Shown: one piece after another, positions 53,704-58,172 of the stretch | Layout of the letters: each line of letters opens with the position of its first letter | Position numbering within the stretch: the first letter of the stretch is position 1 | NCBI RefSeq assembly: GCF_003439925.1 | Contig: NZ_QQRR01000001.1 | Location: 248,001-312,000 of the forward strand | Length of the DNA stretch: 64,000 nucleotides | Direction: 5' to 3' | Origin: Haloprofundus halophilus | GTDB lineage: Archaea > Halobacteriota > Halobacteria > Halobacteriales > Haloferacaceae | Program-made: the position numbers and the translations under genes | Notes under the pieces: generated by a model | Told to the model about the DNA's origin: nothing | Seen by the model: the letters and a program-made list of their open reading frames with translations, nothing else | Databases searched by the model: none

Positions 53704-53875
53704 ACCACGGGATACTGCCTCTGGGGTTAAAAGCACTGCTTGCTTTCGGAACACGATTTCGCTTTATTCGTTACCCGCGCTGATTACGCGTGTCTCGTCT
53801 CTGGGATTCCTCAGCGGCCTCGACAGAATGTTAAATTGAAAATACACTGTTGTATTCCTACTTTTATTCTAAATA

Positions 53876-53881
53876 TTTATA
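53876..53881 (+). promoter_or_regulatory. TATA box of the secreted PKD operon
   Basis: TTTATA within a long AT-rich stretch (53835-53881), 33 nt before ATG 53914. The stretch is unlike the GC-rich spacers elsewhere. Confidence 0.5.
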
Positions 53882-53913
53882 ACCGGTATGGGGATTATGC
53901 TCGTCTCGTCACG

Positions 53914-56900
53914 ATGACTATACGACGACTCTTCGTTGCACTGCTCGTCGTTTCGGCGACGGCCCCGGTTCACGTCGTTGGAACGTCGTCGGAACCGCCG
54001 CTCGCCGACGCAGGGCTCGACCAGACCGTCGAACGCGGGTCGACTGTTCTCCTCGACGGGACCGGATCGCGAGACCCCGACGGAACGCTCGAAGCCTACC
54101 GGTGGTCGATTCGCGGTCCGGATGGGCGAACAGTGGTTCCGGAGAACGAATCGGCACCGCGCACGAGTTTCGTTCCCGACATGGTCGGGCGGTTCAACGT
54201 CACGCTCACCGTGACCGACGACGACGGGACGACCAGCTCCGATACGCTCTACGTAACGGTCGAACCAGGAGATGCACCGTCGGTAGACCTCACAGGTCCC
54301 GAGGACGGCTTCGTCGGTCAGGACCAGCGCTTCACCGTCGAAATAACACCTGGGTCGGCCCCGCTCGATAGAGCGGTCTGGCGCGTCGATGGCGCGGTCG
54401 TCTCCCGACGTTCACTATCACCCGATGCACGCACCGACACGCTCGAGATGCCGTTCGGTTCGACGGGGTCGCAGGACGTCTCTGTTACCGTCGTCGACGC
54501 GGACGACCGATCGAACACAGACTCGAAGTCAGTTCAAATTTCGTCTCAGGGTCCTGCTGGAGCCGACGAGACGACGGCACCGCCGGGGCTCGATTCGGAC
54601 CCAGCAATCGTGAGGGGTGACCGAGTTGTCACCGGTGAGCGACCGCTCGAAGGATCGTACCGCATCGACGCTCCGTCGTTCACGAACGTCGCCGACGTTG
54701 AGTGGTACAGTGAACGCGGTCTCGTCGGTCACGGCCATCGACTTCGGCAGCGATGGGAACCGGGGTCTCACACGCTGTATGCGGTTATTCACTACCAGGA
54801 TGGATATCGCAGTGTCGCCCGTTTCGAGGACGGCGAGACGTCAGTCGTCGCGGACCCCCGACCCAACGCTTCGGTCACTGGACTGAGTCTCGACCACGGG
54901 ACTGTCTCCGGAACTGCGGTCGGTAGTGACGAATTCGGAAACCTCCGTGCGATGACTGTGTCGCTCGATGGGCGACAGGTCGTTTCGTGGACTGACTCGG
55001 GGAGTGGTGTCTCGCAGAACGACCTCTCCTTCGAGGCGAACGCAACGCCGAACGAGGAACACCGACTCCGTGTGACAGCTATCGACGCACGGGGCCAAGA
55101 GCGGGTGTTTTCGCGAACCATCACTCCAACGGGTTCGCCAGAGATTGTCAGTTCTCAGTTTCTGAACACGCCTGTTGACTCCTATCACGAACGAATCGAT
55201 CCGGAGCGATATATCGCATACCACGAGATGAAGATTGATCTAAACGGGGCTGATCCGGAGGACGTTTCGTGGAGATTGAAACCTAAAAAGGAAAATTCCG
55301 TTCTAGTACTTGATTCGCACTCAAAAAACGAAAGTGGAGTATTGGTCATAGAATCAAGGATTGCTGGACGATATCCGGGTTCATATGTGGTTAATTCTGA
55401 AATTTGGTCTAACAATGGACCCAAATTAGACACGTTTGAAGAATCGTCAAACAAATTTAAAGTGGAGCAAAGCCCTCCAGAACTTCGTGTGAATATTAGC
55501 TACAACAATGAAAAACGGGTGAATGGGGACCGTCCAGTTACAGTTGACGCCACTGATTCTTTTGACCCTGACTATACGACAATTCGATATAAATGGAGAA
55601 ATGATATGGACCCAGTCTTAGATGGAACTCATCTCACGTCTCATACAGACCTTGGTAGTATGAGAGTGACAATTATAGATGGCTATGGAAACTCAATTAC
55701 GGAAACAACTGGACTAGAGGGTTACTATACTCCGAAAATTGCCGATGTGTCAATTTCTGATAGAAAGGAGATATATCTTCCTAATGAAACAGTGAGATTG
55801 GAAGTCGTCTCTGAAGAATACACTCGTATCGGAGACCCCAATCCGCTTAATATCCATGCTGAAACTACCGGACACGAAGCTGCAACAATAACGGATTGGT
55901 CTCGGGATGCTGGATTCGTTCATGACAATTACGACGGAGAGTACCGGTGGTCTGGAATAATCGAACTCCCCGCCTCAGCACTTCAGAGCGGAAAAAACAA
56001 CCCTTCAATCCAGATATACAACGCTGAAAACCCAGATATCACGATACGGTCTGAAAAGCTCCCATCAGTGACAGTGTATAAGACAACGAACACACAACTT
56101 ACCAATACCTCAGTCAACAACCTCCGCTATACAGTACTCAACGAAGAATACGACTGGCGGCAGGCGACTGACTATACGACTCTACAGAGATATCGGAACG
56201 ATGGATACGTAGTCGACAGTACCGACCGAAGAGGAATCGAATACAACGTACAACAGTACAAGAAAACCCAGTCCGCGAAATACAGGACAGAGAAGCGCCA
56301 CTTCGAGAGATACGATTCTCGTGAACTTCTCCTCGATGCTAACTCCGACTGGGTCTCCGCCGGGAGCGAAACGACGACCGACGTGTGGCACACAACCGAA
56401 ACTGAGTGGAGAGACAACAGAGCCGGAAAGGGAACCTTCACCGGAGACACACGAACTGTTCGAGTCGAACCAGCACGATACCGAACGGAAAAACAGTACG
56501 AATACGACCGTCGGGTCAGAAAAACCGGTACGCGAAGGGTCACTGAAACGAGAACTCGGACGACCACCGATGTCCGAGAACGCACTGTAACTCGATGCAC
56601 ACAGTGGGGATGTTTCGAGTCAACTGAGCGATACACCGTAACCGACCGTGAGACGTACACAGTAACAACGACCGAGACATACTCGTATTATACGACAGAG
56701 ACCGAGACTTACTGGTCGACACAACCATTTGGAAGTGACCACCGTCACACTGGAAACGTTCGGCGGGTACAGACGGCCCCCGCCGAGTACGAGAGACAGT
56801 ACCAGTACGAGTACCGCGAACGTCACGAAGAAACCACTACGACGTATATCGCCGAAAAACGTGAGCAGGTGCGTCCGGCACAGTACGACTGGGTCCACTA

Positions 56901-57255
56901 CGAAACGACAACCAGCGGCCCCCGTGTCGACCAGATCACTCGCCGCGACGGATTCCGTGTTGGTTCGACATCGAAGATTCGACGTTGGTTCATGAAAAAG
57001 AAGATTGGAGAGTCGAAAGAAACTTCAGATACATACGACGATGCAGATGACGTGATTCGAACGCGCGGGACAGTCACTGGGGAGATTAGACAGACGTTCA
57101 TGAATCCAGTAACAGGGGAGACGACCACTCAGATAACAGGTGAGTTTAAAGAGGAATTCATTAAATCTGGGTCGTATACAAAATCTGAGGTCTTTGACGA
57201 AATTACTTCGTCAAAGAGTAATGCAGAGTGTGGGAAATGTGGAGGCGTAATATGA
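53914..57255 (+). CDS. large secreted PKD-domain protein with Tyr/Thr/Arg-rich C-terminal region
   Basis: 1113 residues from ATG 53914. Sec signal RRLFVALLVVSATAPVHVVG. A PKD domain spans about 27-118 (PLADAGLDQTVERGSTVLLD, GRFNVTLTVTDDDGTTSSDT) and Ig-like beta domains follow. From about residue 410 the DNA becomes AT-rich (AAA, AAT, TTA and ATA codons). Residues about 770-960 are an unusual Tyr/Thr/Glu/Arg region (YRTEKRHFERY, VTTTETYSYYTTETETYW, TEKQYEYDRRV). The end has CGKCGG. There is no membrane anchor. It overlaps the next gene by 4 nt. Likely a surface or biofilm/adhesion protein; no enzyme motif. Composition suggests transfer. Confidence 0.75.
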   Translation: MTIRRLFVALLVVSATAPVHVVGTSSEPPLADAGLDQTVERGSTVLLDGTGSRDPDGTLEAYRWSIRGPDGRTVVPENESAPRTSFVPDMVGRFNVTLTVTDDDGTTSSDTLYVTVEPGDAPSVDLTGPEDGFVGQDQRFTVEITPGSAPLDRAVWRVDGAVVSRRSLSPDARTDTLEMPFGSTGSQDVSVTVVDADDRSNTDSKSVQISSQGPAGADETTAPPGLDSDPAIVRGDRVVTGERPLEGSYRIDAPSFTNVADVEWYSERGLVGHGHRLRQRWEPGSHTLYAVIHYQDGYRSVARFEDGETSVVADPRPNASVTGLSLDHGTVSGTAVGSDEFGNLRAMTVSLDGRQVVSWTDSGSGVSQNDLSFEANATPNEEHRLRVTAIDARGQERVFSRTITPTGSPEIVSSQFLNTPVDSYHERIDPERYIAYHEMKIDLNGADPEDVSWRLKPKKENSVLVLDSHSKNESGVLVIESRIAGRYPGSYVVNSEIWSNNGPKLDTFEESSNKFKVEQSPPELRVNISYNNEKRVNGDRPVTVDATDSFDPDYTTIRYKWRNDMDPVLDGTHLTSHTDLGSMRVTIIDGYGNSITETTGLEGYYTPKIADVSISDRKEIYLPNETVRLEVVSEEYTRIGDPNPLNIHAETTGHEAATITDWSRDAGFVHDNYDGEYRWSGIIELPASALQSGKNNPSIQIYNAENPDITIRSEKLPSVTVYKTTNTQLTNTSVNNLRYTVLNEEYDWRQATDYTTLQRYRNDGYVVDSTDRRGIEYNVQQYKKTQSAKYRTEKRHFERYDSRELLLDANSDWVSAGSETTTDVWHTTETEWRDNRAGKGTFTGDTRTVRVEPARYRTEKQYEYDRRVRKTGTRRVTETRTRTTTDVRERTVTRCTQWGCFESTERYTVTDRETYTVTTTETYSYYTTETETYWSTQPFGSDHRHTGNVRRVQTAPAEYERQYQYEYRERHEETTTTYIAEKREQVRPAQYDWVHYETTTSGPRVDQITRRDGFRVGSTSKIRRWFMKKKIGESKETSDTYDDADDVIRTRGTVTGEIRQTFMNPVTGETTTQITGEFKEEFIKSGSYTKSEVFDEITSSKSNAECGKCGGVI

Positions 57256-58172
57256 ATAGATACGTTAGTGTGACAACAATAATTTGCTTTATTCTGATAG
57301 TGCTATCCTTAGTCTCTCTGGGCGCTGCACAATCAGACCAACAGTTGAACACATCAAACTGTGTTAATCTTAATGATGTGGTTTCGACAAGTGATGTAGT
57401 TTATACATCCACATTTTGTCCAAATGGTTCAGTTGTTATAAAGGTGGAAAATGAATTTGGGGCAAAAGTACAGACAGGATTCGCAGTTACAGTTGATAAA
57501 TATGATGTATTGAACGAAGATTTTGTCATGAACCAAGGTTCAACAAGAACATTCACAGCAAACGTCACTAAATACGTCAAACCCAGTCAGACTAACCACA
57601 CAGTCACCATCTCAACCTTCGGCGACCACACAACCTACAACTTCACCCACAAGGTCAACAACACCGACTCCGGACCCGTCCCTACACCCGAAATAACAGA
57701 AGTCGAAGTCAAAACGGCCGTCATCGACGGCGAAGAGACGACAGTCATCAACGCAACTGTCTCGAACCCGACAATTCACCCGTATCCGATGGTACTTCTC
57801 GCGAGCACTGAGGAGACCTCGACCTACCAGCTCGCCTCGACCGGTCCGAACGACACCTCGACCATCCAGATCCCGGTCGACGAGGCACCCGGTACGAGAG
57901 TTAAAGGCGAACTGCGACTGAACGACGGAAACGTCTCGGAGGGATACGACCAGGTCCAGTTCAACGGTTCCGCAGACGGCCCCACCACGCACCGGAACGA
58001 GTCGTACACCGTCGTCCAAGCGTCGTGGGATGAGGATCCGTACCACTACGGCGAAGAGGATAACCTACTCCACGGCACGCTCCCCGCTGACCCACTCGAA
58101 TCTCCCGCCGGGCTCGCCGCACTCGCTGGCGGCGTTCTCGCGGCCGGGCTAGCGACGCGACGTGTCGTCTGA
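57252..58172 (+). CDS. secreted, C-terminally anchored partner of the PKD protein
   Basis: 306 residues. Sec signal SVTTIICFILIVLSLVSLGA. The ectodomain has many N-glycosylation sites (NGS, NVT, NHT, NFT, NNT, NAT, NDT, NVS, NES). A C-terminal helix (SPAGLAALAGGVLAAGLATR) ends in RRVV, a membrane anchor rather than a clear PGF-CTERM. The first half is AT-rich like the end of the PKD gene; the last third returns to GC-rich. That suggests a mosaic. ATG overlaps the PKD stop (ATGA), so the two are likely made together and may form a complex on the cell surface. Confidence 0.7.
   Translation: MNRYVSVTTIICFILIVLSLVSLGAAQSDQQLNTSNCVNLNDVVSTSDVVYTSTFCPNGSVVIKVENEFGAKVQTGFAVTVDKYDVLNEDFVMNQGSTRTFTANVTKYVKPSQTNHTVTISTFGDHTTYNFTHKVNNTDSGPVPTPEITEVEVKTAVIDGEETTVINATVSNPTIHPYPMVLLASTEETSTYQLASTGPNDTSTIQIPVDEAPGTRVKGELRLNDGNVSEGYDQVQFNGSADGPTTHRNESYTVVQASWDEDPYHYGEEDNLLHGTLPADPLESPAGLAALAGGVLAAGLATRRVV

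Follow-up and report, generated by a model that had tools for sequence, protein, structure and literature searches.

Within the window, the entire 64,000-nucleotide stretch of Haloprofundus halophilus DNA that was analysed, two neighbouring genes, here termed P1 and P2, and the features associated with them are located as follows.

53876-53882, + strand: TATA-like box TTTATAA 5′ of P1, from compared upstream sequences
53914-57255, + strand: P1, a secreted protein of 1113 aa with a PKD head, an Ig-like middle, a Tyr/Thr/Arg ribbon tail and a C-terminal Cys pair
53992-54261, + strand: PKD domain of P1, residues 27-116 (PF18911, E 1.1e-14, above cut-off)
55135-56058, + strand: family-specific middle of P1, residues 408-715, where the AT-rich part begins
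56059-57198, + strand: Tyr/Thr/Arg tail domain of P1, residues 716-1095, of no known family (AlphaFold2 mean pLDDT 81.8)
56509-56715, + strand: long beta-hairpin with a Thr face, residues ~866-934, with arms that vary in register by 16 residues
56596-56613, + strand: hairpin tip C895-x4-C900, conserved in 31/35
57229-57240, + strand: C-terminal Cys pair C1106, C1109, with a terminal C-x(n)-C in most orthologues
57252-58172, + strand: P2, 306 aa, with a signal peptide, two Ig-like beta-sandwiches and a C-terminal membrane helix
58104-58166, + strand: predicted C-terminal membrane helix of P2, residues 285-305

Both open reading frames of the original prediction are present, and the ATG at 53914 fits better as the start of P1 than 53835, being followed by a signal peptide (MTIRRLFVALLVV) and preceded by the TATA-like box at 53876. 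A side-by-side comparison of upstream sequences revealed that ~45 bases around this box are conserved across the three Haloprofundus copies. The start codon of P2 overlaps the 3′ end of P1, and an overlap of 4 bases between the two reading frames was found in several genomes. The neighbours of the pair are housekeeping genes, with SBDS upstream and a NifU-like gene and others downstream (downstream names assigned by eye). Haloarchaeal surfaces govern mating, virus entry and biofilm growth, and many large secreted proteins of haloarchaea carry just a PKD label; no description of the P1/P2 family was found in the literature by title or abstract. With its full-length P1 architecture and adjacent P2, the two elements that define the cassette, the window locus belongs to a genuine, strictly paired and old haloarchaeal envelope cassette, undescribed so far.

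The head of P1 matches PF18911 at 54.6 bits, against a curated cut-off of 27. The middle includes a further PKD-like stretch at ~533-605, which a PDB sequence search matched to PKD-type chains of ColH (E 1.5e-4). P1 resembles the PKD-domain secreted proteins of haloarchaea (PF18911 and related) in its PKD head, its export and its Ig-like multidomain build, but differs from them in that its middle and tail fall outside every model and in its strict partnership with P2. The partner had been described as highly glycosylatable and C-terminally anchored, and both attributes were borne out: P2 carries 11 N-glycosylation sequons against 4.5 expected from composition, and its predicted helix occupies residues 285-305. 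Orthologues of P2 are sequon-rich family-wide, mostly with 7-14 per protein. A structural model of P2 comprised two Ig-like sandwiches and a helix (pLDDT 84.6), and no NCBIfam match to the PGF-CTERM signal of archaeosortase substrates was obtained for P2, whose C-terminus reads LAALAGGVLAAGLATRRVV.

The Tyr/Thr/Arg segment, which the first reading of the DNA could match to nothing recognisable, indeed has no known family among the libraries searched: Pfam, NCBIfam, PHROGs and the PDB sequence search all left it unscored. Y, T and R make up 42% of P1 residues 760-960, and a strict two-residue alternation runs through the segment far above what composition predicts, with an identity of ~0.07 at odd lags and 0.18-0.37 at even lags; the repeat signal of the hairpin has maxima at 8 and 16 residues. 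By eye, this Tyr/Thr alternation is similar to that of the YTV domain (PF07639), a planctomycete Tyr-Thr-Val repeat, but the PF07639 profile had no match at the P1/P2 locus. It yielded two sub-threshold matches elsewhere in the genome of the window and none among 32 members of the P1 family. We ran AlphaFold2 on P1 residues 716-1113 with 32 family members and read the model as secondary structure and confidence; at a pLDDT of 81.8, the pTM was only 0.34, so the overall shape of the tail is uncertain. In this model, the Cys tip joins strands of 42 and 37 residues, and short helices lie between the other long strands. The Tyr/Thr/Arg block forms a long beta-hairpin of two strands, with a conserved C-x4/5-C closing it.

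Lengths of the two predicted arms vary in concert. Between the FTG-x-TR anchor and the first Cys, the spacing is either 37 residues or 53, with 52 in three sequences; between the second Cys and YW it is 33 or 17. The combinations are 53/33 (52/33 in the three) or 37/17 and never mixed, both arms being shorter by 16 residues together (r 0.999). This length covariation shows that the arms pair. With the hairpin columns left out of the tree, the short form has three independent origins, one of which is a single Halorussus amid long-form relatives. Steps of 16 residues thus make strand pairing, and a length under selection, readable from sequence alone. Thr makes up 60% and 66% of one hairpin face in the two arms; the opposite face carries R/V/K in the first arm and Y/E/V in the second. 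The hairpin evolves under purifying selection, with a dN of 0.03-0.22 against a dS of 1.5-2.0, the latter near saturation. Within the genus, conservation is 76-78% in the tail domain versus 50-63% in the middle. The hairpin is missing from some members (L111, L042) and the terminal Cys from some, and the core role can therefore do without either. As a separate observation, the P1 frame ends in truncated or unrelated sequence in Haladaptatus litoreus (L087/L099) and Halorussus marinus (L106), which points to a frameshift or an early stop codon close to the 3′ end of P1 in these species.

To the extent sampled, the two genes share one distribution. At strong scores, P1 was present in 66/392 sampled genomes of the order, and 65 of these same genomes also had P2; in the sole genome with P1 and without P2, P1 is cut by a contig end and the assembly is 59% complete. 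P1 and P2 were adjacent in every case, with model ends -32 to 272 bases apart; the architecture of the pair and the linkage of its genes are established. Full-length relatives of P1 occur in other families of the order, and a phylum-wide sample added nothing outside it. Searching genome contigs beyond haloarchaea returned weak matches to the PKD-like part only, and relatives of the tail were found neither outside haloarchaea nor in phages, viral contigs or plasmids, the viral scan being queried with the window protein. In the P1 tree, each host family formed one group, with five changes, the minimum possible. When the hairpin columns were removed, up to three changes were needed for the f1 group, with the long-branch Haloparvum row of uncertain placement, and the other groups held. 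P1 and P2 are an old haloarchaeal pair that does not come apart; its position alone is young. A 43-residue P2 remnant with a stop codon, observed in a genome without P1 (G207:C2:67212-67343), has the appearance of a decayed cassette.

The shift in base composition that was reported to begin inside the PKD gene and end late in the second gene is real: GC is 0.63 before P1 residue ~407, 0.47 after it and 0.52 in P2, with the recovery located in the second half of P2. At fourfold sites, the corresponding values are 0.65, 0.43 and 0.58, and ten neighbouring genes range from 0.74 to 0.90. We compared 35 orthologues from several haloarchaeal families and found GC to be lower after this point in all 35, and fourfold-site GC in 34 of them. 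Seven other PKD proteins showed a smaller fall, both in GC (0.053 vs 0.127 in the P1 family, p 2.5e-4) and at fourfold sites (0.070 vs 0.145, p 0.053). The step is therefore a trait of the P1 family, and its conservation within the gene cautions against deducing recent transfer from composition.

Other haloarchaeal genera commonly carry the pair in a slot flanked by korA (divergent) and aroC (convergent). In this genus, aroC directly adjoins korA in all five genomes, at a distance of ~250 bases, and this slot is empty; comparison of sister species placed the pair in 3 of the 5 genomes, at a derived site next to the NifU-like gene, and two of these have SBDS on the opposite side. In the third pair-bearing congener, SBDS lies ~40 kb off and is inverted (G004:C1:1214773-1258789), an arrangement that would reflect a rearrangement with one end at the cassette locus. 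The two congeners without the pair hold unrelated AT-rich DNA of 40-44% GC in the SBDS-NifU interval, where neither P1 nor P2 has left a detected remnant. These inserts (L059, L060) carry small membrane-protein-like reading frames in place of the cassette, as at a variable site.

Two accounts of this position were weighed. A recently acquired AT-rich island, in which an operon from a low-GC donor retained the donor composition, would explain the GC step, the missing pair in two of five congeners, the unrelated low-GC DNA in its place and the emptiness of the usual slot. We nevertheless regard it as quite improbable, given that GC falls at the same point throughout the orthologues, that the P1 tree follows host families at or, for f1 without the hairpin columns, somewhat above the minimum of changes, and that our searches found no tail relatives outside haloarchaea or in phages, viral contigs and plasmids. 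The acquisition that the original prediction had read from composition was largely rejected, both the shared step and the host-family tree speaking against a foreign source, and searches for a phage or plasmid origin gave no relevant match. As for the prediction's own test of an ancient gene, the orthologues do share the composition, but the pair itself is absent from some relatives. An old haloarchaeal cassette was more probably relocated or transferred to the variable SBDS-NifU site within the genus and lost in some species, in keeping with a korA-aroC slot that is filled in other genera and empty in this one, and with the variable AT-rich content where the pair is missing. The change may have been a move or a loss with regain, and no mobile-element genes were seen at the junctions; a local move or a transfer within haloarchaea may have taken place in this genus. 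Relocation accounts for position rather than function and is compatible with a role of the pair as an envelope spike.

With regard to function, the earlier view of the two linked genes as a surface or envelope system is well supported by the signal peptides, the Ig/PKD folds, the anchored partner and the shared genome set. We modestly favour a modular envelope cassette in which P1 is a surface spike and P2 its membrane-anchored partner. P1 would be exported, its PKD/Ig-like domains lined up ahead of a rigid tail of very long antiparallel strands, from which the central hairpin would project as a two-stranded ribbon tied by the Cys pair at its tip. P2 would also be exported, would carry glycans and, fixed in the membrane through its C-terminal helix, would most likely tether P1 to the cell surface. 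On one face the ribbon would expose Thr residues in a flat array, as an O-glycan carrier or as a stacking or binding surface, and on the other R/E/Y, and the spike would contact neighbouring cells, surfaces or matrix. Binding between P1 and P2, the disulfides, glycosylation and surface display are what we infer from these features; the putative role in adhesion is a plausible guess.

The same Thr array and the family-wide sequons of P2 would also suit an envelope scaffold or glycoprotein layer, with a densely O-glycosylated Thr face and a structural rather than adhesive role; we consider this unlikely, though worth keeping in view, as the patchy occurrence of the pair argues against an essential scaffold. 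A membrane-inserting hairpin, through which oligomeric P1 would form a beta-barrel pore or conduit, was prompted by the best Foldseek matches of the tail, which were beta-pore proteins, lysenin and aerolysin among them (E 4e-4 to 2e-3). These proteins resemble the P1 tail in their long hairpins, but the matches covered pieces of such hairpins only, at TM-scores of 0.05-0.13 (~0.1) and an rmsd of >60 A, with no global fold match. Furthermore, the P1 hairpin offers no hydrophobic, lipid-facing stretch, since one face is Thr and the other charged or aromatic, and alternating hydrophobic runs without Tyr do not exceed 3; the pore was therefore rejected as very improbable. Viral structure models likewise gave no convincing match to the tail. 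A strictly paired cassette with a defined ribbon domain offers a testable unit of the haloarchaeal surface.

A sister arrangement, type B (L136-L140, L143), was found in other f1 genera without P1. Its members share with P1 the PKD head (~47-62% identical to P1-type heads), a korA-aroC setting, a Cys-bounded tail loop and a terminal Cys pair, and their tails are Trp/Tyr/Arg-rich. Type B adjoins korA in L136 and L138 and aroC in L139 and L140, in a P1-like orientation (gene names by eye). The next gene differs: where P2 stands beside P1, three type B examples (L137, L140, L143) are followed by a CAP-domain protein (PF00188), lipobox-like by eye. Type B occurred in 19/392 genomes, six of them weakly, and the strong matches and P1 genomes were disjoint. 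When the tails of P1 and type B were aligned by hhalign, the match was not significant (2.9%, E 0.016), with FTG-x-TR words and Cys pairs as the only common elements. Tentatively, both may belong to one haloarchaeal spike class in which a constant PKD head bears exchangeable aromatic/Thr-rich ribbon tails and membrane-anchored partners, in a korA-aroC slot whose content varies by lineage, like bacterial serotype loci; the Thr-faced ribbon would then be a new fold, its reach adjusted by 16-residue steps per strand.

In type B tails (L136:989-3703, L137, L138), two GHDHD motifs flank the Cys-bounded loop symmetrically (GDGHDHDR...C...C...SGHDHDG); if paired, the arms would oppose four His and four Asp, a possible candidate metal site. 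Some distance after two type B genes lies a thioredoxin-fold protein (L136:4435-5187, L138:4526-5239), whose start looks lipoprotein-like or Tat-like by eye, with a Pfam thioredoxin match in L138 only; these neighbours are of interest in that type B proteins carry conserved Cys pairs.
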